A program made the translations under genes and the position numbers. Under the pieces are notes generated by a model. That model was not told the origin of the DNA, searched no databases, and worked only from the letters and a program-made list of their open reading frames with translations. Below, one piece after another: positions 11,083-64,000 of a DNA stretch of 64,000 nucleotides. The stretch is from Ascidia mentula. Lineage: Eukaryota; Chordata; Ascidiacea; Phlebobranchia; Ascidiidae. The first letter of the stretch is position 1. The number at the start of each line of letters is the position of its first letter. The stretch spans positions 6,135,001-6,199,000 of the forward strand of contig OX387197.1 of assembly GCA_947561715.1 (NCBI GenBank), written 5' to 3'.

Positions 11083-20637
<9,555 letters not shown>

Positions 20638-21270: not shown

Positions 21271-24200
21271 ATGATTTTATTGGCTTTGCTTTGGTATTTC
21301 TGTCCGCAGGTTTTGGCGTTTACAGGTATGTAAATATTATGTAAATGTAAACTTTGCTAACGTCCAGTTAAGGCATTTACTTATTTGAAGATCTTGGCAA
21401 ACTAACGCCAGTTTCTGTTGCATTTATTAAGCCATCAATGTATGTTATAGGTTTGCCTCACATATGGCATAATATTCCTAATTGTAGTATTTGCTCCAAC
21501 AACAAAAACAACAACAGACATCACGATACGCCCTGAAAAGAGAGTAACTACAAGTTAACCTACTTTTAAACAGTTTCCTGCAACACGGATTTTCAGGCGT
21601 TAAATCATTCTATCACGAAGGTGTTTTGTCCACCAAACTGCTGGAAACGCCGCTCAAATTTATGTGGAAGCGGTGTTTACGCGAAGGGGCCAATTTGTCT
21701 TGCAGCTATGCAGGAACAGCTTATTGACGGTAAAGTGTTAAACTTTTTAGACATGGGTTACAACACGTTTAAACGAGGAAACAAAGCAAGCAATGTATTG
21801 CTTCAAAAAAAGGTGCGAGTTGGGGACTTGGCAACACTTTTTATACATCATTGAGAATAGTGGGCAGTAACTGTTAGTTGTGTGTAGCCCAAAAGCTAAC
21901 TTTTTTCTAAATATCTGCGACCCCGGTACAGAAAAAAGTTTCGTATTAGGTATGTGGAAAGCAATGTACTTACCAAGAACTTTTTTTATAATATTTGCTA
22001 CTGCAAGGAAAATATTTTTTGAAGCTTCGGGCGGACTTCTTACCGTGTACGAGAGTTCAAAACCGGCTACATTTTCTTCAACTGTGCAGAATGGAGTGGC
22101 AAGTCAGACATGCACGCATGCAGGTCCTACTGCTTACACTTTTGAAAGTAAGAAAGCGTTTAATCAATTTAAATGAAAACTTTTAATTCGTGGGAAGACT
22201 AAACATGTGGATATCAACAGTTAGTTGCTTCTTACTTTAGTGACATGTACAACAAAAGGAAATACCCAGTACGCAATTACGAAGGTCTATTGTCCGGCAA
22301 ACTGTCAAGGTCAAACCTATCCATGCGGAAACAGTGCGTTTCACTTGAATAGTTCAGTGTGCGCCGCGGCGATTAGAACGGGAAAACTTACAGGTGAGGC
22401 AACGATAAAAAAAACTCATTTTCTCAGAGAAGAAAATGCAATTGCACAAAGTTTTATTACCAATGCAATATGTGAAGCTTCTGGTGGTGAAGTTACAATA
22501 TACAAGTACACGAATGGCAGCAATATACTGATTCCAGCTGGTGGAAACAACTTTTGTGGGAGTTCGTCGTGGTTTGTACTTACAGGTACGATATTGGTTT
22601 AAATTTTTTTTGTTCTGGCGATGTGATGAAACACATTTTTGCTCAGTATTTCAAACAATGAGCTGAAAAAGAAGCACAAAGTAATTTTTTCGATATCAGC
22701 TTTTATTTGCATTAAATATTCCAGTTCTAATAACGTGCGTGTATGTTGCGGACTTTTTGCGTGAAACTTGTGGTTTACAAAAAGCAGGCGGGAGACATGT
22801 ATCTTTCGAAAGTTTTCATTGCACCAAGTTTTTGCATTTTTTTTAAAACAAATATTTGCAGTCTTGTAACAATAGTTATTTTAAGACGTTAATCCGTGCT
22901 TGGTTGCTTCCCCATGTCTTAACGGTGGTACATGTGTTGACCTGTTGGGGGATTTCGCATGCATTTGTGCTTCAGCTTTTACCGGAAAAACTTGTGAAAC
23001 GGGTAGGTGTCCAGGCATTTTATATACACCCGTGTCAGGTTTGATATATCGACATTAAAACAACGAATACAGCAACAGGACCAAATAAGACACAGTGATT
23101 AATTATAGTACTTGTACGTTACAGATATCATAGAATTTATAGGTTATACAGTATAGGTACTAGATTACAATATATTTGCAGTTGCCAACGCATTACTATT
23201 GCGAATACAATTTTCAATTACAACACAAAATTTCTGACTTCCATATATTCGTAAGGGAGGGCATTTGCATTTTTTATAGGAATGGGATGCCCAAGATCAA
23301 AACTTGTATTTTCACACAACGAACAAATCGTGGACTACGCATGGTTCCAGGGACATGTTCCCCGGTTTGTAAGTGCCACGGCTTGCATGTGGATGAACGT
23401 ATCCACCTACAGCCACGATCTGACAACGGCAAGTTACGCCGTCCCAGGAAAAGACAACGACTTTTTGCTATACTTTTACGGCAAAGATGCGGGGAAAGTA
23501 GTTGAATTCTGGGTTTCGCAAACGTATACGTTTCTAAACGTCAGCATCCCTCTCAAAACTAATGTAAGTACAGAAGCAAAAGAGCCATAATAAAACATTG
23601 TGTCTTTGCATCTAAGTGTAAGTGTTATTGTGTTTTTATGTGCAAGTGAGTGCATGTGCTTCCAAATAGAGATAAAATTAACTCATGCTGCTTATGTACA
23701 TATCTCTGTGCAGTTGATCAAAGCAACAGTTTGCTGTTAATATGTTATGGAATACTTGAATACGACAGGTTCATCTGTGCGTATGGTTTGATACAACTAA
23801 GAACTTGGCCGGAACTTACAGCAACGCCAACAAAACGGACGAAAAGACGTTTAATATATCACCAACCACAGCTAATGGAAGCTTTATTATCGGACAAGAA
23901 CAAGATGCTGTTAACGCAGGACGCTTGGACCCAGCCCAATCTTTTCTGTTGAGTATTTATGATGTATAGTTAGGCTTTATTGGTACACTCATATTAGGTC
24001 ACTATATTATTGATAGATTATTGGTGTGGGATACGAAGTTACTTGTTCAGTTAATAAAATAGTGTTTTGCTTTAACAATAATTAACTGTGCAGTAATTGG
24101 AAACAAATTTTTAAAATGTGCCTTTGATTGTTTTTTAACATGCAATTGCAAAAGAATACCTAGTTTCATTCCTAAAAACTATCACAGCGGTACGGCGAAC

Positions 24201-24523
24201 GTTCAAACCAAATAAACTGGCACAGGTTGCAAAAAAGGTTGGGAACTCCCGGATTAACCAGGCAGCAAACAGTTATAACGATATTTTGTAGTTATGGAAT
24301 AGGACCCCTAATTTTAGACAACTTTGTCTAATGAAAATTCTTTTGTAGCGGAACTGTTTCTGACTTTGTGATGTGGCCTCGGGTTCTTACGTCATCAGAA
24401 ATCGACGTCATTTATCGAACATGCAATTGCCCGAAGGATTACGTCATTTCAATGACGCCCAGCAAAATTCGGCTGTATGGAAATGTAACGAACTTGGTCA
24501 ACGAAACGTGTTCTCGTGCTTAA
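21271..24523 (+). CDS. Secreted LCCL-LCCL-EGF-pentraxin protein
   Basis: Nine exons: 21271-21325, 21574-21729, 22025-22147, 22241-22393, 22478-22585, 22886-23002, 23280-23563, 23769-23947, 24349-24523. They total 1,350 nt, or 449 aa. Exon 1 is a signal peptide (MILLALLWYFCPQVLAFT). Exons 2-3 and 4-5 are two LCCL domains, with CPPNC and CPANC cores, the helix Cys in GPICLAA and SSVCAAA, and ASGG followed by a beta-strand. Each is split by a phase-1 intron at the same place. Exon 6 is an EGF module with six Cys. Exons 7-9 are a pentraxin domain: Cys pair in ACMWM and HLC, Ca-site motif GQEQD, then FVMWPRVLTSSEI. The pentraxin signature HxCx(S/T)W is altered to HLCVWF. LCCL and pentraxin domains bind lipids or polysaccharides in other proteins, so a soluble recognition or matrix role is plausible but inferred. 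Confidence 0.87.
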
Positions 24524-25474
24524 CATGAAAATATGGCAAAAAGCTATTGATTAATTTTATAAATTAGAATTAGACTTTAAAAACGAGTATGACAGAAACA
24601 GAGGAGAATATCAATTTTCTCATGTTAGTAGTCTTGCAAACAAACCGTAACTTTTGAGTAATACAGCAGTCCAGCGATGCAGTAGTGTTTGTGGCCGTAA
24701 TGCTCAAATTCGGGATTTCTCTTCTGCCTTTTTTCATATCTCGTCCGGGCTTAACTGCTCGTATAAGTGAAAGTAACTTTGTTCCAAATTATGCTCCAAT
24801 TCCTTGGTATATTGTTAATATTTAACTACTGCTCTGTATAATAATTTGCTATGTTTATCGTGATGAGCACAGCAGCAAGTAATAGACAGATTATTAATAA
24901 TCTTTACCAGGTGGTAAAAACATTTGACAAGGTGCTTGTTTACAAGCTGGCAACAGTGGTAGAATGTTTGTCATTTTAATTTTGGTACAATACAATTTAA
25001 TGATTTGTGTGCACAAAAGAGATGAAAATGTATAAATACGTAAAGCTGGAGTCTAAACTAAAAAAACAGCTACAACCAAAAATCGGCCTCTATACCCAGT
25101 ACACTGCTATTAATAGGGATCGTTGTAAGCCTAGCTTGTGACACATATGGGAAAACCTTTTTAGCCAAACATAATCAGCGGGAGATGCGTTTTGACAACA
25201 TACGTATGCATATTGGATCACCTATCATATAACAGCGGCCTTTATCGTCATTGCAATTATGCGGAGTCAATATTTCTCTTCCTGTAGGCTAGATATTGGC
25301 AATAGTTGTATAGCTTGCTTAAAACGACGGTGAGGTATTTGCTTGGTTATCTAATTTGCGATTTGTTCGGTACAAATACCTTGCCAAGTACACTGATTTA
25401 ATCAACAAACCCTTGCAGCTTACTACAACTGGATGATTTTCATCAATAGCAGCATTTTACTGTGAAATTGACAA
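24524..25474. other. Intergenic, no gene seen
   Basis: No ORF with recognisable coding character is present. It serves as the 3' flank of the LCCL/pentraxin gene and the 5' flank of the 7TM gene. Confidence 0.5.
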
Positions 25475-26509
25475 ATGGAGACAAACAGGACCATCATGAC
25501 AGAAATATCATCACAAAACCGAGGTCAGGCGAATATCATCGCAGAATGGTTGTTTGGCGGTTTTCTGATTCTGCTACTTTTCTATCTTACCGTTGCTTCG
25601 GTGATCTATCAGCTCTGTTCCAGGAATGAAAGCTTGAAAGTCACAAACCGCCTGTGTTCGGTTTCGTGCGCGAGTCTGCTGGTTTCACGTAGTTTACTAC
25701 CGTTGATGCTTACTATGAAGACGATCACTGACAGAACTTGCACTTGGGTGTCCAATATTGCAATGGTTTCGATGAGTGTTTCAACGTACCTCGTTTATCT
25801 GTCTCTTTGGCAGCGCCAGAGTCTTATGTATGAACGCGTCGAGTCGGTGAACACTCAGTTGATTGTGTCAAAATTTTGCAGCAAGGTCGTTTTGTGCGGA
25901 ATGACATTTTTCTTTATACTGCAAACCACTGGAACGCTTCTTACCACGTCAGTATTTGAGCCAGAAAATTTGTGTGTGAGAGAAAGAACCACAGCGACGT
26001 TTTCAGTAGTTTACACAGCCGGTCTAATGCTTTTCCACTTCGGGGTATTGATTTTGCTTTTCCTACCATCGAGCAAGTATTTCGGACACTTGAGTGGCAT
26101 TGCGAAAGTGTATAAACGCTGTGCAGTTTGCGCTGCGGTTTGTTTGGGTGCAGATGTATTAAAAATAATTTTACTTCTTTACTTTAAACCCAAAATTGCA
26201 GAATGGGGTTGGCTGTCGCAAGCAATTTTTGGTTGTTTTCTCGAAGTGTGCTTCATTGTCGGCATATTGGCGCTACTGCTCTCATTTCCGGACTACAAAA
26301 AACGCTTGTTTCCATTTGCCATGATCAGAGAAAGGTCAAAGGTCAACTGCGTGAAGTCCTCTTCCAAAAGCATAAAGTTAAGTCCACAAGGAAAGAACAA
26401 CCCAAATCCCAAGGTAGTGGTAACTCTTCATGTAGATAACAGCACGGATAACAACCTAACAACTCCAAAGGTTTTCTTGAAAACACCCCCGACATCTGGC
26501 AATGATTAA
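25475..26509 (+). CDS. Single-exon seven-transmembrane protein, family not recognised
   Basis: An intronless 344-aa ORF runs from ATG at 25475 to TAA. A polar N-terminus with an N-glycosylation sequon (NRT at residues 4-6) precedes seven hydrophobic segments, at roughly residues 25-48, 62-86, 91-115, 133-158, 175-200, 212-235 and 243-268. A basic, Ser/Asn-rich cytoplasmic tail of about 70 residues follows. A Cys at the start of segment 3 (TCTWV) and one in the second extracellular loop (NLCVRE) could form the usual GPCR disulphide. After segment 3 the motif LWQRQ stands where rhodopsin-class receptors have DRY, and there is no NPxxY in segment 7, so I do not place it in class A. It is likely a lineage-specific GPCR-like receptor; the ligand is unknown. 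Confidence 0.75.
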   Translation: METNRTIMTEISSQNRGQANIIAEWLFGGFLILLLFYLTVASVIYQLCSRNESLKVTNRLCSVSCASLLVSRSLLPLMLTMKTITDRTCTWVSNIAMVSMSVSTYLVYLSLWQRQSLMYERVESVNTQLIVSKFCSKVVLCGMTFFFILQTTGTLLTTSVFEPENLCVRERTTATFSVVYTAGLMLFHFGVLILLFLPSSKYFGHLSGIAKVYKRCAVCAAVCLGADVLKIILLLYFKPKIAEWGWLSQAIFGCFLEVCFIVGILALLLSFPDYKKRLFPFAMIRERSKVNCVKSSSKSIKLSPQGKNNPNPKVVVTLHVDNSTDNNLTTPKVFLKTPPTSGND

Positions 26510-53876: not shown

Positions 53877-55999
53877 TTAAACTCTTTGATAAAACAGAAC
53901 TCGTTCGTAGTCAATGCTACAGGCATGTCGTCCGTCCTCCTTTGAAACATCGACTTGATCCTACAAGAATAACACCGACTTAATGCTTAACAGAAAATTT
54001 TTTTTTCGAACTGCAGATTGAATTTCTAAACTAAAGTTTAAAAAAACTTGTGTCTTTGAAATGAACCAAGTTTCAAAGAGTTGCTTTTCACTAATTTAAA
54101 AATTCAACATTGTGTTTAAATTCCAGATAAAGTTATGTAATAGATGACGTCTACACATGGTTGTACTTTGAAGTACAGGATTTCTATCATTTAAAAATGC
54201 AAGCTTATTGGGCAAAAGTATGGCAGAGCAGATTAACGTAAAGAATATAACGCAGATTATTAGGTATTATTACGTCACTGCCTACCTCTTTAACAAGTGT
54301 GCATTTTCCTTTAAGTCTGTTCATCGTTTTAAGAACCGAATCTTTGTATTCTACGTCAGATCCCGGATTTTTGTAGTTACTCACATTAATTGCTAGAATC
54401 CCGTCTGACACCAACATGTTAACCAACATCTGTTGGAAATAAAAATATATTTTCCTAATATATTTCAAAATTGCAACAAATATTCTGATAACAAACAAAC
54501 TGGTCCCGTTGAAAACGTTGACATGTTTTATTTATGATGATGGCATAGCTTTTTGCAGAAAAGTTTAAATAAATAAAACATGCCAATGTTTTGAGCACTG
54601 TGGGCCATTCGGTTTATTATCAGAATTATCAGTAAATCCATTATTAGTGTTCGTAAGTTTGCAGCAGACATTTCATACAAAAACACAGAAGTAAAAATAG
54701 CATTCCAGAAACGTACATCAGTTTATAACCACTCACAACGACAAACACACATAAACTTTACACATGTATTGTTCCTGTTGTAGTTTATGCCAGTGGTTCA
54801 CAACCTTTTTATACTTAGGTTGACCGGAAATTCAAAGAAACTTCAGTTTCGGGTAAAGCTACGCGTAATATATCAAAGTAAAATCTCGTGTTAGCGGAAC
54901 AAGGGAATTTGTTTCAATGCGTGCAAAGGGCTATGTTAGCGTGTTCATGCCAGACGCCCACAGAAATGTAACATATTGTCTTACCTCGAGGCATTCGTGA
55001 GGTAAATGACCGAAGCTGAGTCCACCTGTACATGTTATTAAATCGTAATGGGACTTGTCCGTTGAAATCGGATCGTCTTCAGTGATTAGTTGACAGTGAA
55101 GCGTTCTGTTTTTAAAATTTTTGTCACGAAATTCCTCCTGATTTAAACAGCTTTGACACTAATAGTCGTGGTACAACTAAAAAAAGGAATTTTCTACACG
55201 GTTTTGCTAATAGTTATTCTACGTAATTATGCGCTATGCTAAAAAGCAGAATGGCCACATAGTGAATGTATTATTGCTAACTATGTTTTAATTGCTACTA
55301 TTGTCCTAGCTACATCGATCATTACATGGCGGTGGCATTCCCTTGCAATTCTTCTTACCTGTAAACGTTTTTGCGTGACGCCACATTCAGTAGTTCCTGG
55401 CACCCGTCAACGCCATCAATTGCTCCTAACCACCCAGCTCGACGTAGGGCTTCCCCGCATAAACCGCTGCCTGCATTGAGAAGGAGTTTACCGTGTGACG
55501 CATAGTAAAAACATTATAGACAAGGGTCGGACACTCAATGATTTCCGCAGCATACAGGCATAGCCTACTTGCGCGCACACACACTGTGTTTCTTCCTTCC
55601 GTTCCTTTGCGGTATGTTGGCGATGCGTATGTGGTATGACAAATGGCACAAAACAGGAGAACCTCGAGAAAGCTTGCTTTGTAACTACTTGGCATATTAG
55701 ATTTACCCAACAAACGCCAACATACCGGGAAAGATCAGTTCAGAAACTGATGTAGCTATATTTCTGTTTAGACAAAACCAACCTGCACATACGTCCAGGG
55801 CACAAAGGTCTTTCGTGCTTTTTCCAGCATAGTATTCCTCTACCATCTCTGACAGTTTGTTTGTGGAAATGGAGCCAACTTCCATAAAACCATTGTCATA
55901 CTGAGCTGCAACCTCATTATAAACTGCTTGGTTCACCTGGGCTGATTCGGTTAATTTCCCGTACATTTGGCATATGACCGGCTTACTGTGATTGTCCAT
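53877..55999 (-). CDS. METTL27-like SAM-dependent methyltransferase, complete copy
   Basis: Five exons (minus): 55999-55783, 55470-55359, 55150-54985, 54429-54286, 53960-53877. They total 723 nt, or 240 aa, with all phases consistent. The class I methyltransferase core is visible. Motif I, ALDVCAGSGLCGEALRR, spans exons 1-2. It is followed by acidic residues in AIDGVDGC, then DLITCTGGLSFGHLP (motif IV/post-loop), and SDGILAINVSNY, which takes the place of the usual KPGG strand. The start MDNHSKP was chosen because it opens exon 1 and is preceded by no other in-frame Met. Length and core order resemble METTL27 (WBSCR27), whose substrate is not established. This is the only one of four tandem copies that keeps the complete exon 4 and the last exon (DQVDVSKEDG... 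to the stop at 53877). Confidence 0.83.
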
Positions 56000-56433
56000 T
56001 GTTCTCTATGTTTAAGTGCCTGAAGAATGGAACAGGTTAGTCCACGTATTGCCTCTTACATAACACCCGATGCTTCGGGGCATTTTACTTACTCACTCAC
56101 TTCGACCTCGACAAATGGGCCGCGAGCGAGTTGTAATTTTTGAGGCCAACCAGGCATAAAAGTGGCCTTACAAACCTCTGCTAATGTTGGTTAGATCATG
56201 TACGCGTCTGAATGTAAGTGCTGCGCAAAGTCGACAAATTGCGAAATAAATCTTTTGTAACCAATATTTTTTTCAAGCCAACATCCAAAACGACCAACAT
56301 CCAAAACGAAATATACCAGCAGTTGCAAAGCTTCGCCTTTCAAGTGGTAAACTGAAATGGGCACTAAACCTTTGTCTGAATGAGACAACAGATATATTCT
56401 TTGTGGCAAAGAAATAGCAAAAAAAAAAAAAAA

Positions 56434-58090
56434 TTTGTATTCTACGTCAGATCCCGGATTTTTGTAGTTACTCACATTAATTGCTAGAATCCCGTCTGAC
56501 ACCAACATGTTAACCAACATCTGTTGGAAATAAAAATATATTTTCCTAATATATTTCAAAATTGCAACAAATATTCTGATAACAAACAAACTGGTCCCGT
56601 TGAAAACGTTGACATGTTTTATTTATGATGATGGCATAGCTTTTTGCAGAAAAGTTTAAATAAATAAAACATGCCAATGTTTTGAGCACTGTGGGCCATT
56701 CGGTTTATTATCAGAATTATCAGTAAATCCATTATTAGTGTTCGTAAGTTTGCAGCAGACATTTCATACAAAAACACAGAAGTAAAAATAGCATTCCAGA
56801 AACGTACATCAGTTTATAACCACTCACAACGACAAACACACATAAACTTTACACATGTATTGTTCCTGTTGTAGTTTATGCCAGTGGTTCACAACCTTTT
56901 TATACTTAGGTTGACCGGAAATTCAAAGAAACTTCAGTTTCGGGTAAAGCTACGCGTAATATATCAAAGTAAAATCTCGTGTTAGCGGAACAAGGGAATT
57001 TGTTTCAATGCGTGCAAAGGGCTATGTTAGCGTGTTCATGCCAGACGCCCACAGAAATGTAACATATTGTCTTACCTCGAGGCATTCGTGAGGTAAATGA
57101 CCGAAGCTGAGTCCACCTGTACATGTTATTAAATCGTAATGGGACTTGTCCGTTGAAATCGGATCGTCTTCAGTGATTAGTTGACAGTGAAGCGTTCTGT
57201 TTTTAAAATTTTTGTCACGAAATTCCTCCTGATTTAAACAGCTTTGACACTAATAGTCGTGGTACAACTAAAAAAAGGAATTTTCTACACGGTTTTGCTA
57301 ATAGTTATTCTACGTAATTATGCGCTATGCTAAAAAGCAGAATGGCCACATAGTGAATGTATTATTGCTAACTATGTTTTAATTGCTACTATTGTCCTAG
57401 CTACATCGATCATTACATGGCGGTGGCATTCCCTTGCAATTCTTCTTACCTGTAAACGTTTTTGCGTGACGCCACATTCAGTAGTTCCTGGCACCCGTCA
57501 ACGCCATCAATTGCTCCTAACCACCCAGCTCGACGTAGGGCTTCCCCGCATAAACCGCTGCCTGCATTGAGAAGGAGTTTACCGTGTGACGCATAGTAAA
57601 AACATTATAGACAAGGGTCGGACACTCAATGATTTCCGCAGCATACAGGCATAGCCTACTTGCGCGCACACACACTGTGTTTCTTCCTTCCGTTCCTTTG
57701 CGGTATGTTGGCGATGCGTATGTGGTATGACAAATGGCACAAAACAGGAGAACCTCGAGAAAGCTTGCTTTGTAACTACTTGGCATATTAGATTTACCCA
57801 ACAAACGCCAACATACCGGGAAAGATCAGTTCAGAAACTGATGTAGCTATATTTCTGTTTAGACAAAACCAACCTGCACATACGTCCAGGGCACAAAGGT
57901 CTTTCGTGCTTTTTCCAGCATAGTATTCCTCTACCATCTCTGACAGTTTGTTTGTGGAAATGGAGCCAACTTCCATAAAACCATTGTCATACTGAGCTGC
58001 AACCTCATTATAAACTGCTTGGTTCACCTGGGCTGATTCGGTTAATTTCCCGTACATTTGGCATATGACCGGCTTACTGTGATTGTCCAT
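56434..58090 (-). pseudogene. Methyltransferase copy 2, 3'-truncated
   Basis: Exons 58090-57874, 57561-57450 and 57241-57076 are intact, and exon 4 starts at 56520. Exon 4 is cut after DVEYK by the array junction and runs on through the poly(A) tract (read as Phe) into the next unit's upstream flank, up to a stop at 56191. The last exon is missing. If expressed, it would keep motif I but have a chimeric C-terminus. Confidence 0.75.
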
Positions 58091-58524
58091 TGTTCTCTAT
58101 GTTTAAGTGCCTGAAGAATGGAACAGGTTAGTCCACGTATTGCCTCTTACATAACACCCGATGCTTCGGGGCATTTTACTTACTCACTCACTTCGACCTC
58201 GACAAATGGGCCGCGAGCGAGTTGTAATTTTTGAGGCCAACCAGGCATAAAAGTGGCCTTACAAACCTCTGCTAATGTTGGTTAGATCATGTACGCGTCT
58301 GAATGTAAGTGCTGCGCAAAGTCGACAAATTGCGAAATAAATCTTTTGTAACCAATATTTTTTTCAAGCCAACATCCAAAACGACCAACATCCAAAACGA
58401 AATATACCAGCAGTTGCAAAGCTTCGCCTTTCAAGTGGTAAACTGAAATGGGCACTAAACCTTTGTCTGAATGAGACAACAGATATATTCTTTGTGGCAA
58501 AGAAATAGCAAAAAAAAAAAAAAA

Positions 58525-60181
58525 TTTGTATTCTACGTCAGATCCCGGATTTTTGTAGTTACTCACATTAATTGCTAGAATCCCGTCTGACACCAACATG
58601 TTAACCAACATCTGTTGGAAATAAAAATATATTTTCCTAATATATTTCAAAATTGCAACAAATATTCTGATAACAAACAAACTGGTCCCGTTGAAAACGT
58701 TGACATGTTTTATTTATGATGATGGCATAGCTTTTTGCAGAAAAGTTTAAATAAATAAAACATGCCAATGTTTTGAGCACTGTGGGCCATTCGGTTTATT
58801 ATCAGAATTATCAGTAAATCCATTATTAGTGTTCGTAAGTTTGCAGCAGACATTTCATACAAAAACACAGAAGTAAAAATAGCATTCCAGAAACGTACAT
58901 CAGTTTATAACCACTCACAACGACAAACACACATAAACTTTACACATGTATTGTTCCTGTTGTAGTTTATGCCAGTGGTTCACAACCTTTTTATACTTAG
59001 GTTGACCGGAAATTCAAAGAAACTTCAGTTTCGGGTAAAGCTACGCGTAATATATCAAAGTAAAATCTCGTGTTAGCGGAACAAGGGAATTTGTTTCAAT
59101 GCGTGCAAAGGGCTATGTTAGCGTGTTCATGCCAGACGCCCACAGAAATGTAACATATTGTCTTACCTCGAGGCATTCGTGAGGTAAATGACCGAAGCTG
59201 AGTCCACCTGTACATGTTATTAAATCGTAATGGGACTTGTCCGTTGAAATCGGATCGTCTTCAGTGATTAGTTGACAGTGAAGCGTTCTGTTTTTAAAAT
59301 TTTTGTCACGAAATTCCTCCTGATTTAAACAGCTTTGACACTAATAGTCGTGGTACAACTAAAAAAAGGAATTTTCTACACGGTTTTGCTAATAGTTATT
59401 CTACGTAATTATGCGCTATGCTAAAAAGCAGAATGGCCACATAGTGAATGTATTATTGCTAACTATGTTTTAATTGCTACTATTGTCCTAGCTACATCGA
59501 TCATTACATGGCGGTGGCATTCCCTTGCAATTCTTCTTACCTGTAAACGTTTTTGCGTGACGCCACATTCAGTAGTTCCTGGCACCCGTCAACGCCATCA
59601 ATTGCTCCTAACCACCCAGCTCGACGTAGGGCTTCCCCGCATAAACCGCTGCCTGCATTGAGAAGGAGTTTACCGTGTGACGCATAGTAAAAACATTATA
59701 GACAAGGGTCGGACACTCAATGATTTCCGCAGCATACAGGCATAGCCTACTTGCGCGCACACACACTGTGTTTCTTCCTTCCGTTCCTTTGCGGTATGTT
59801 GGCGATGCGTATGTGGTATGACAAATGGCACAAAACAGGAGAACCTCGAGAAAGCTTGCTTTGTAACTACTTGGCATATTAGATTTACCCAACAAACGCC
59901 AACATACCGGGAAAGATCAGTTCAGAAACTGATGTAGCTATATTTCTGTTTAGACAAAACCAACCTGCACATACGTCCAGGGCACAAAGGTCTTTCGTGC
60001 TTTTTCCAGCATAGTATTCCTCTACCATCTCTGACAGTTTGTTTGTGGAAATGGAGCCAACTTCCATAAAACCATTGTCATACTGAGCTGCAACCTCATT
60101 ATAAACTGCTTGGTTCACCTGGGCTGATTCGGTTAATTTCCCGTACATTTGGCATATGACCGGCTTACTGTGATTGTCCAT
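58525..60181 (-). pseudogene. Methyltransferase copy 3, 3'-truncated
   Basis: Same structure as copy 2: exons 60181-59965, 59652-59541, 59332-59167 and a truncated exon 4 from 58611, with a chimeric read-through to 58282. No difference from copy 2 was noticed. Confidence 0.75.
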
Positions 60182-60615
60182 TGTTCTCTATGTTTAAGTG
60201 CCTGAAGAATGGAACAGGTTAGTCCACGTATTGCCTCTTACATAACACCCGATGCTTCGGGGCATTTTACTTACTCACTCACTTCGACCTCGACAAATGG
60301 GCCGCGAGCGAGTTGTAATTTTTGAGGCCAACCAGGCATAAAAGTGGCCTTACAAACCTCTGCTAATGTTGGTTAGATCATGTACGCGTCTGAATGTAAG
60401 TGCTGCGCAAAGTCGACAAATTGCGAAATAAATCTTTTGTAACCAATATTTTTTTCAAGCCAACATCCAAAACGACCAACATCCAAAACGAAATATACCA
60501 GCAGTTGCAAAGCTTCGCCTTTCAAGTGGTAAACTGAAATGGGCACTAAACCTTTGTCTGAATGAGACAACAGATATATTCTTTGTGGCAAAGAAATAGC
60601 AAAAAAAAAAAAAAA

Positions 60616-62272
60616 TTTGTATTCTACGTCAGATCCCGGATTTTTGTAGTTACTCACATTAATTGCTAGAATCCCGTCTGACACCAACATGTTAACCAAC
60701 ATCTGTTGGAAATAAAAATATATTTTCCTAATATATTTCAAAATTGCAACAAATATTCTGATAACAAACAAACTGGTCCCGTTGAAAACGTTGACATGTT
60801 TTATTTATGATGATGGCATAGCTTTTTGCAGAAAAGTTTAAATAAATAAAACATGCCAATGTTTTGAGCACTGTGGGCCATTCGGTTTATTATCAGAATT
60901 ATCAGTAAATCCATTATTAGTGTTCGTAAGTTTGCAGCAGACATTTCATACAAAAACACAGAAGTAAAAATAGCATTCCAGAAACGTACATCAGTTTATA
61001 ACCACTCACAACGACAAACACACATAAACTTTACACATGTATTGTTCCTGTTGTAGTTTATGCCAGTGGTTCACAACCTTTTTATACTTAGGTTGACCGG
61101 AAATTCAAAGAAACTTCAGTTTCGGGTAAAGCTACGCGTAATATATCAAAGTAAAATCTCGTGTTAGCGGAACAAGGGAATTTGTTTCAATGCGTGCAAA
61201 GGGCTATGTTAGCGTGTTCATGCCAGACGCCCACAGAAATGTAACATATTGTCTTACCTCGAGGCATTCGTGAGGTAAATGACCGAAGCTGAGTCCACCT
61301 GTACATGTTATTAAATCGTAATGGGACTTGTCCGTTGAAATCGGATCGTCTTCAGTGATTAGTTGACAGTGAAGCGTTCTGTTTTTAAAATTTTTGTCAC
61401 GAAATTCCTCCTGATTTAAACAGCTTTGACACTAATAGTCGTGGTACAACTAAAAAAAGGAATTTTCTACACGGTTTTGCTAATAGTTATTCTACGTAAT
61501 TATGCGCTATGCTAAAAAGCAGAATGGCCACATAGTGAATGTATTATTGCTAACTATGTTTTAATTGCTACTATTGTCCTAGCTACATCGATCATTACAT
61601 GGCGGTGGCATTCCCTTGCAATTCTTCTTACCTGTAAACGTTTTTGCGTGACGCCACATTCAGTAGTTCCTGGCACCCGTCAACGCCATCAATTGCTCCT
61701 AACCACCCAGCTCGACGTAGGGCTTCCCCGCATAAACCGCTGCCTGCATTGAGAAGGAGTTTACCGTGTGACGCATAGTAAAAACATTATAGACAAGGGT
61801 CGGACACTCAATGATTTCCGCAGCATACAGGCATAGCCTACTTGCGCGCACACACACTGTGTTTCTTCCTTCCGTTCCTTTGCGGTATGTTGGCGATGCG
61901 TATGTGGTATGACAAATGGCACAAAACAGGAGAACCTCGAGAAAGCTTGCTTTGTAACTACTTGGCATATTAGATTTACCCAACAAACGCCAACATACCG
62001 GGAAAGATCAGTTCAGAAACTGATGTAGCTATATTTCTGTTTAGACAAAACCAACCTGCACATACGTCCAGGGCACAAAGGTCTTTCGTGCTTTTTCCAG
62101 CATAGTATTCCTCTACCATCTCTGACAGTTTGTTTGTGGAAATGGAGCCAACTTCCATAAAACCATTGTCATACTGAGCTGCAACCTCATTATAAACTGC
62201 TTGGTTCACCTGGGCTGATTCGGTTAATTTCCCGTACATTTGGCATATGACCGGCTTACTGTGATTGTCCAT
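60616..62272 (-). pseudogene. Methyltransferase copy 4, 3'-truncated, next to the original 5' flank
   Basis: Exons 62272-62056, 61743-61632, 61423-61258 and a truncated exon 4 from 60702, with read-through to 60373. Upstream of it the sequence passes at about 62698 into unique DNA, so this copy carries the ancestral upstream region, while copy 1 carries the ancestral 3' end. Confidence 0.75.
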
Positions 62273-64000
62273 TGTTCTCTATGTTTAAGTGCCTGAAGAA
62301 TGGAACAGGTTAGTCCACGTATTGCCTCTTACATAACACCCGATGCTTCGGGGCATTTTACTTACTCACTCACTTCGACCTCGACAAATGGGCCGCGAGC
62401 GAGTTGTAATTTTTGAGGCCAACCAGGCATAAAAGTGGCCTTACAAACCTCTGCTAATGTTGGTTAGATCATGTACGCGTCTGAATGTAAGTGCTGCGCA
62501 AAGTCGACAAATTGCGAAATAAATCTTTTGTAACCAATATTTTTTTCAAGCCAACATCCAAAACGACCAACATCCAAAACGAAATATACCAGCAGTTGCA
62601 AAGCTTCGCCTTTCAAGTGGTAAACTGAAATGGGCACTAAACCTTTGTCTGAATGAGACAACAGATATATTCTTTGTGGCAAAGAAATAGCAAAAAATTA
62701 AAAAAATTAAAATTACGCAGTTATTCATTTAAACGCATCAGAAATGGACCAAACTTCAGTACTGCATGTGCACGTATTTTCCTGATTTATCAAATTGCAC
62801 TTTATTAAGTCTGTGCTACTTTAATGAAGTTTCCATTTAGCATAACCTGTTTCCAGCAAATCCCGTCGTGCGAAAAAACCGTTGCCGTGACAAAGTGTTC
62901 AATGATGTTGGCAGTACTGTGTTTTGATAACATTTTATTCGAAAACCCATTCATACATGGCAACTTCAGCATCTGTACATTACTTCCTGCGCATAATAAT
63001 AGCACTGTTATACTGCTATCGGCGCCACGGACAAGAAGGACGTCGCACATCGTTGTCAGAATGACAGCAATTTTCGTGACCAGCAAAGATTGCTTGTTAT
63101 TATAAGTTTGTTCATGTCCTAATGCATAACTTTGAATATGCAACGATCGACAATGAGGAACACTGATCAACCCACTCTTATGGATTTTGTGTGTGGACAG
63201 GGGGTAAGAACAGTTGATTTGCTGCACAAACGGGTAAAATAACAATAACTGCCTACATAGATTTGCGTTTAGTAATTCGAAATACCTTCTCACGGGAATT
63301 ACTTATGTGCATTTGTGTATAACCTCCTGAGGAATACGTTGGGTTCCATCGTGCCGATAACGGGCTGCAAGGAAGCTCGGTCGCCAACAGTATATTTCTA
63401 CCAACGATTTCCCGCCTGGCTACCAAAGCAGACTAATCACTCGATTGGAACTGATTTGTTGCGGATGATGGGTCGCGTGCGAGTTGTAATTTTCTAGGCC
63501 AACCAGGCATAAAAGTGGCCTTGCAAACCTCTGCTAATGTTGGTTAGATCATATACGCGTCTGAATGTGTGTGCTGCGCAAAGTCGACACTGAAAACTTG
63601 CAGTTCGAAATAAATCTTTTGTAACCAATATTTTTTTCAAGCTTTACGGGCTTGCACGTCGTACATATAATCACCAGCATTCAAACGATCGGAAAGCCTG
63701 GGTTTGGGCTTGGCAAATACCACCGGTTGCAAAGCTTCGCCTTTCAAGTGGTAAATTAAAATGGGCACTAAATCTTTGTCTGAAAGAGACAATAGATATA
63801 TTCTTTGTGGCAATGAAATGATAAATATTTACAAAGTTATTCATTTAAGCGCATCAGAAATGGGCCAAACTTTAATACTGCATGTGCACGCATTTTCATC
63901 AAATTGCACTTAATTAAGTCTGTGCTACTTTGATGAAGTTTCTATTTAGCATAACCTGTTTCCAGCAGTTCCCGTGTCAAAGTGTTCAATGTTGTTGGCA
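62273..64000. other. Flank of the array; contains an older, diverged duplication
   Basis: About 520 bp at 62397-62920 (GCCAACCAGGCATAAAAGTG through GTGTTCAATGATGTTGGCA) recur at about 63480-64000 with scattered substitutions and indels. The second copy may continue beyond the window. A 162-codon minus-strand ORF at 62805-63293 has no recognisable domain; I do not call it a gene. Confidence 0.65.

Follow-up and report, generated by a model that had tools for sequence, protein, structure and literature searches.

An LCCL-LCCL-EGF front end is common to pentraxin, fibrinogen-like and F5/8C heads in the genome of the ascidian Ascidia mentula. One gene with this front end lies on the + strand, at positions 21271-24523, of the 64,000-nucleotide stretch of DNA analysed here (the window), and its predicted protein has the domain order leader-LCCL-LCCL-EGF-pentraxin. 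We describe this gene, its paralogs with pentraxin and with other heads, and the functions that the family may serve.

Results

Structure of the window gene

Rebuilding the gene from the DNA gave nine exons joined in one frame and encoding 449 amino acids followed by a stop codon, which reproduced exactly the model put forward in a sequence-only reading of the window. All introns are GT...AG, and all exons are on the + strand. Exon 1 (21271..21325) carries the start codon and a hydrophobic leader, MILLALLWYFCPQVLAFT, and ends in phase 1. Judged by eye, the leader is a probable signal peptide, in agreement with the earlier suggestion that the chain is secreted. No membrane anchor was seen by eye at the C-terminal end of the protein.

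The first LCCL domain (LCCL1) is divided between exon 2 (21574..21729) and exon 3 (22025..22147), and the second (LCCL2) between exon 4 (22241..22393) and exon 5 (22478..22585), with a second half that is shorter than the Pfam profile. Exon 6 (22886..23002) contains the whole EGF-like domain. As had been claimed for the LCCL and EGF exon borders, exons 2-6 are in phase 1 at both borders; the pentraxin region is interrupted by two introns, in phase 0 and phase 2. The pentraxin domain begins in exon 7 (P1, 23280..23563), which includes Cys273 and an Asp-Asn pair matching D60/N61 of CRP. It continues in exon 8 (P2, 23769..23947) with the central strands, Cys336 and the calcium loop GQEQD...LDPAQ, and is completed in exon 9 (P3, 24349..24523) by the C-terminal part and the stop codon. 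Exons 2-9 were assigned from the DNA rebuild and Pfam, with alignment added for exons 7 and 8.

A domain search of the 449-aa model placed all three domain types, which had been called recognisable from the letters, above their Pfam cut-offs. LCCL (PF03815) scored 77.8 bits in two stretches of the whole protein (cut-off 22.6), the EGF-like domain (PF00008) 31.3 bits (cut-off 21.5) and Pentaxin (PF00354) 63.2 bits (cut-off 25). When the LCCL domains were scanned separately, LCCL1 scored 49.4 bits and LCCL2 40.5 bits against the same cut-off of 22.6, with the short LCCL2 covering profile positions 17-71 of 96. Neither PLAT nor SRCR domains were found in the Pfam scan of the protein.

LCCL domains are described as carrying the motif YxxxSxxCxAAVHxGVI, with conserved cysteines and a histidine (PMC10892792). 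By eye, the cysteines and CxAA are present in both domains of the window protein (C60 in LCCL1, C152 in LCCL2), and the motif histidine is replaced by Gln in LCCL1 and by Arg in LCCL2. This histidine is retained in LCCL2 of the paralogs at 6.81 Mb on contig C2 (see below).

The solved pentraxins closest to the window head were neuronal pentraxin-2 (5.2e-18) and neuronal pentraxin-1 (2.5e-17), followed by CRP and SAP. C273 and C336 align with C36 and C97 of CRP, which we take to be the numbering of its disulfide cysteines. The eight-residue pentraxin signature HxCx[ST]Wx[ST] is present in many members of a family that is itself defined by profile; the window protein has HLCVWFDT at this position and, by eye, leaves the signature unmatched. 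At the positions that we take to be the calcium-site residues of CRP and SAP (D60, N61, E138, Q139, D140, E147 and Q150), the alignment places D, N, E, Q, D, D and Q, so that all equivalents are present; position 147 is Asp, as in the aligned SAP.

Other features of the window were also recorded. Upstream, at 15593-19671 (+), is a CUB-LDLa-trypsin-like gene with a Ser/Thr-rich tail, in which CUB scores just below its cut-off; two of its tail frames, closing at 19671 and at 20637, each finish with a hydrophobic stretch, which suggests alternative last exons. Downstream, at 25472-26509 (+), a 345-aa open frame that contains several hydrophobic stretches and may encode a seven-helix receptor had no Pfam hit at E <= 0.01. 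A 2091-bp unit is repeated in tandem at 54343-62582; a 300-bp test stretch is 100% identical in four copies, and three 143-aa open frames are identical letter for letter. No Rfam matches were found in the window at gathering cut-offs.

A family of LCCL-pentraxin genes in the same genome

The mitochondrial COX1 of this genome (195.8 Mb, 79 contigs) contains 16 AGA/AGG codons. Translated with the ascidian mitochondrial code (NCBI table 13), in which AGR encodes glycine, a hallmark of ascidians, it matches mammalian COX1 along its full length (3.7e-248). Counted by eye, 13 of the 16 AGR residues align with Gly and the other three with Ala, Gln and Ala, which identifies the host as a tunicate. The genome was searched for paralogs using a tblastn exon map, followed by exon profiles on the fetched loci. 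A one-off fusion in the window is ruled out by 20 further genes that combine LCCL with a pentraxin or pentraxin-like head, giving 21 in the genome with the window gene. Fifteen LCCL-EGF-pentraxin genes, 14 on the minus strand and one on the plus strand, form a tandem array at 4.491-4.572 Mb on contig C1, 1.6 Mb from the window. Each has at least one LCCL2-EGF unit ahead of the pentraxin, and the number of LCCL-EGF units varies: five in three genes, two in three and one in nine. The LCCL1 exon was found in at least 10 of the 15 genes among the matches listed, and the LCCL2 exon is broken in the array gene whose pentraxin end is at 4538839. A dispersed copy at C1:3.858 Mb has the same architecture as the window gene. 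Four LCCL-LCCL-pentraxin-like genes are located at C2:6.815-6.833 Mb, and exon profiles found no EGF in them.

Four exon-joined paralogs were scanned with Pfam, and the others were identified by custom exon profiles. LCCL was detected in three of the four scanned (the C1:3.858 Mb copy, one array gene and one C2 gene), and Pentaxin was above its cut-off in three of the four. In the scanned C2 gene, one of the four at that locus, LCCL scored 67.0 bits, Pentaxin scored 23.0 bits, below the cut-off of 25, and Laminin_G_3 scored 31.1 bits, above the cut-off of 27.6. An NCBIfam scan of four proteins gave no match. A gene at C1:7.34 Mb, in which custom exon queries and profiles indicated LCCL, was rejected as a family member and left out of the 21 because Pfam found no LCCL in it at E <= 0.01.

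Pentraxin domains were also observed at loci where LCCL was not found. At C2:10.292-10.310 Mb (L026 and L027), several consecutive pentraxin domains are followed by weak EGF-like matches. Four tandem pentraxin genes are present at 250.7-260.2 kb on contig C71 (L020 and L021; LCCL not found in the fetched stretch), one of them with a stop codon within its last exon.

The paralogs bear directly on whether the window model joins two genes. Exon 7 starts with an in-frame ATG at 23282, as might be expected if an LCCL/EGF gene and a separate pentraxin gene had been falsely joined. However, no hydrophobic leader follows this ATG, and in the aligned part neither the 15 array copies nor the C1:3.858 Mb copy have Met at its position. 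The order LCCL2-EGF-pentraxin is kept in all 15 array genes and in the C1:3.858 Mb copy. Measured as distances between profile hits, the EGF-to-pentraxin gap is 75-262 bp in all 15 array genes, 102 bp in the C1:3.858 Mb copy and 280 bp in the window, as compared with 721-2113 bp between neighbouring minus-strand array genes. In-phase acceptor and donor candidates flank the P1 exon in 15/15 array genes, and candidates in the expected phase were likewise found for P2 (15/15) and for the P3 acceptor (15/15). The splice check was passed by 28/29 EGF exons, 10/11 L1a exons and 13/29 L2b exons in the array, although the stretches searched were wide and single hits are weak evidence; the low L2b count is probably a profile-end effect. 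With the conserved order and short gaps in the paralogs, it is very unlikely that two genes were falsely joined.

One front end with different heads

The LCCL1 and LCCL2 exons of the window each have at least 150 matches in the genome, themselves included (150 of ~260 candidates scored for each), and many of these occur as pairs ~400 bp apart. In L031 (C1:4.606 Mb) and L032 (C70:3.235 Mb), LCCL-LCCL-EGF is followed by fibrinogen-like exons, with Fibrinogen_C scores of 31.4 and 49.3 bits, respectively (cut-off 22). In L033 (C1:5.229 Mb), it is followed by an F5/8C exon (45.9 bits; cut-off 28.2). The EGF exons of all three genes are above the Pfam cut-off; the LCCL exons of L032 also pass Pfam, and in L031 and L033 LCCL was identified from genome matches to the window exons. 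Two further loci, L034 and L035, have LCCL-LCCL, and L035 also has EGF repeats. By eye, no head was seen in either within the 4 kb fetched; downstream of L035, fibrinogen-like exons are present ~6-7 kb from its start.

The association of LCCL with these heads was measured across the genome. A head exon on the same strand, no more than 6 kb downstream and before the next LCCL1, was present at 61 of the 150 scored LCCL1 places, and the remaining 89 had no head by this test. The heads comprised 37 F5/8C, 15 pentraxin and 9 fibrinogen-like, the last figure being a lower bound with 150 of 1117 candidates scored. Fibrinogen-headed L031 and L032 themselves land in the no-head class. For random places, the mean was 1.2 per 150 and the maximum 5 in 200 draws; an upstream control gave 41/150 and is confounded by the tandem arrays.

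Dense LCCL-matching exons, many of them equal-scoring and evenly spaced, were observed at C72:5.124-5.183 Mb and C69:1.890-1.912 Mb, apparently as giant arrays. Very many fibrinogen-like exons, mostly on the minus strand, extend across ~1.1 Mb at C70:16.87-17.97 Mb.

A tree of the cassettes was built from 13 rows, 8 of them pentraxin-headed; it has two long branches, and its two C2 rows are short (130-135 aa, without the second half of LCCL2 or EGF). The C2 pentraxin rows join L034 (100/99), apart from the window and the array, and together with L034 they join L035 and fibrinogen-headed L032 less firmly (91/90). The pentraxin-EGF genes (window, array and C1:3.858 Mb copy) make up one side of a weakly supported branch (79/84). 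A single clade uniting all 8 pentraxin-headed rows was rejected by the AU test (p 1e-37, 13 rows), and this rejection indicates that members of the family exchanged, replaced or gained heads on more than one occasion. Among the matches listed, LCCL1 of the window is closest to F5/8C-headed genes (77% identity), as compared with 62% for the C1:3.858 Mb copy and up to 67% for the array. The window EGF is closest to that of the pentraxin copy at C1:3.858 Mb (74%), with array EGFs reaching 72%; against the EGF of fibrinogen-headed L031 it matches at 26/38.

Calcium site and pocket of the array pentraxins

In the array paralogs, E-Q-D and Q150 are kept in 15/15 copies, Asp or Glu is found at position 147 in 14/15, and N61 is kept in 15/15, whereas D60 is kept in only 5/15 and lost in 10. 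Amino-acid change among these copies is fastest in the final 32 columns of P1, columns 61-92 (window 23462..23557, + strand), where pN is 0.37; this block ranks first among 173 overlapping blocks of equal length. In the CRP alignment it corresponds to a stretch containing the equivalents of F66, T76 and E81, which we take to be the phosphocholine pocket of CRP. Within the block, pS is 0.51, as compared with 0.24 in the first part of exon P1, and pooled pN/pS over the 15 copies is 0.74, below 1. For whole pentraxin exons, mean dN / mean dS was 0.54 (P1), 0.40 (P2) and 0.09 (P3). With pN/pS at 0.74 and pS raised too, these data indicate that the pocket stretch changes fast and do not prove positive (diversifying) selection, which we do not claim.

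Discussion

Comparison with known proteins

LCCL and pentraxin in one chain had been regarded in the sequence-only reading as a possibly undescribed combination, a view that is supported in part. No animal LCCL-pentraxin protein was found among the matches listed in searches of open-access papers, and a computed entry may exist in domain databases. Outside animals, Plasmodium CCp3/LAP1 is reported to combine LCCL domains with a LamG domain said to resemble pentraxin (PMC10892792, PMC11285972). Like the window protein, this apicomplexan protein (also PbSR) is a secreted chain with LCCL and a pentraxin-like LamG (PMC10892792, PMC11285972). Unlike it, CCp3/LAP1 has PLAT and scavenger-receptor domains and is part of the LAP complex, and EGF is not named in the sections of these sources drawn upon; the two proteins were compared by description.

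The window head shares its two disulfide cysteines and its calcium-site residues with neuronal pentraxins, CRP and SAP, but it is preceded by LCCL-LCCL-EGF, whereas the N-terminus of those proteins is a coiled-coil or is lacking. A pentraxin fused to another module is described in the Xenopus pentraxin fusion protein, in which the partner is an F-type lectin (PMC3269628). Cochlin, CRISPLD2 (Lgl1) and Limulus factor C are, like the window protein, secreted LCCL mosaics and are described as having LPS or antibacterial links (PMC10892792). Factor C also resembles it in having EGF. In these three proteins, however, the partners of LCCL are vWA, SCP/CAP, or CCP with C-type lectin and protease, and not pentraxin. 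Combinations of LCCL with F5/8C and with C-type lectin are on record (PMC514892), and the first of these is also found in sister genes within the window family. In the window family, LCCL is doubled and then followed by EGF. This differs from the DCBLD type, which we assume the known LCCL-F5/8C proteins to be and whose members are membrane proteins with CUB.

Germline-encoded secreted recognition mosaics are also found in FREPs, which are built of Ig and fibrinogen. VCBPs are likewise described as mosaics of this kind, made of Ig-V and chitin-binding domains with no LCCL base, and the portion of the source drawn upon names only three of them in Ciona (PMC5465252). In the family described here, the domains are known and so is the mosaic style; the animal combination and the family layout were not found described.

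It is possible, and we propose it tentatively, that tunicates possess a large and undescribed secreted recognition system of at least ~60 genes, in which a signal peptide and LCCL-LCCL-EGF are joined to interchangeable pentraxin, fibrinogen-like or F5/8C heads. Such a system would vary in head type, in LCCL-EGF repeat number and in pocket sequence.

Possible functions

The likeliest function, in which we place moderate confidence on the basis of sequence, is soluble calcium-dependent pattern recognition by a secreted tunicate mosaic protein that probably senses microbes, in line with the innate-immune role suggested in the sequence-only reading. This reading draws on the gene model and its domains, the calcium-site residues, the tandem expansion, the variable repeat number, the multiple heads, and the position of the fastest-changing amino-acid block over the pocket stretch. 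Several observations argue against it: pocket pN/pS is 0.74 with raised pS, D60 is missing from 10 of the 15 array copies, the window copy stands alone and away from the array, its second LCCL domain is shortened, and neither of its LCCL domains keeps the motif histidine.

The protein would be exported into blood, gut, mucus or tunic fluid. There its pentraxin domain may bind a phosphate- or sugar-bearing ligand via calcium, possibly once oligomerised, and its LCCL arms may bind lipid A or related material of the bacterial surface; the protein could work in opsonisation or agglutination. Differences in copy number and in the number of LCCL-EGF repeats, together with exchange of heads, might give the germline a range of specificities. 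These roles for the LCCL arms and the pentraxin are proposed on the strength of two sets of reports. The LCCL protein Lgl1/CRISPLD2 is described as binding lipid A, the cochlin LCCL domain as antibacterial, and LCCL proteins as interacting with bacterial wall components (PMC10892792). Pentraxins are known in ascidians (PMC5465252, PMC9960688), and an LPS-responsive pentraxin-like gene family is reported in Ciona (PMC9960688).

Tandem, rapidly changing families would also suit self-recognition. The family could encode gamete or allorecognition proteins on the egg coat or on blood cells, with variants that mark self, as in the case of Ciona Themis, where v-Themis is fibrinogen-like. We consider this unlikely. 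Among the points that fit it, v-Themis acts on the egg side in Ciona self-sterility (PMC7344649), and a SAP-like lectin of Botrylloides is linked to fibres laid down between rejected colonies (PMC2275902). However, the heads of the family are classic soluble pattern-recognition folds, and the main text of the Ciona self-sterility paper makes no mention of LCCL, pentraxin or fibrinogen (PMC7344649).

An adhesive of the extracellular matrix or tunic, in which LCCL, EGF and head would join matrix and cells with no part in pathogen recognition, is to our judgement similarly improbable. Big tandem expansion, differing recognition heads and a variable pocket would be unusual for a structural protein, and the calcium-site residues are mostly retained. 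Against this must be set the descriptions of cochlin as an abundant matrix protein and of adhesion domains as frequent in LCCL mosaics (PMC10892792), as well as the presence of EGF and pentraxin in SVEP1, which has been counted among the anterior-endostyle genes (PMC9953650). Soluble pattern recognition remains the function that we favour.

The single parts of the window gene are ordinary; what is surprising is that it belongs, in a tunicate, to a large LCCL family that exchanges its heads. The multi-head system that we propose would, if real, form a germline counterpart of snail FREPs or of VCBPs. A head-exchanging LCCL-LCCL-EGF family would exemplify, in our own sister group, how recognition diversity can be generated by exon shuffling together with tandem duplication.
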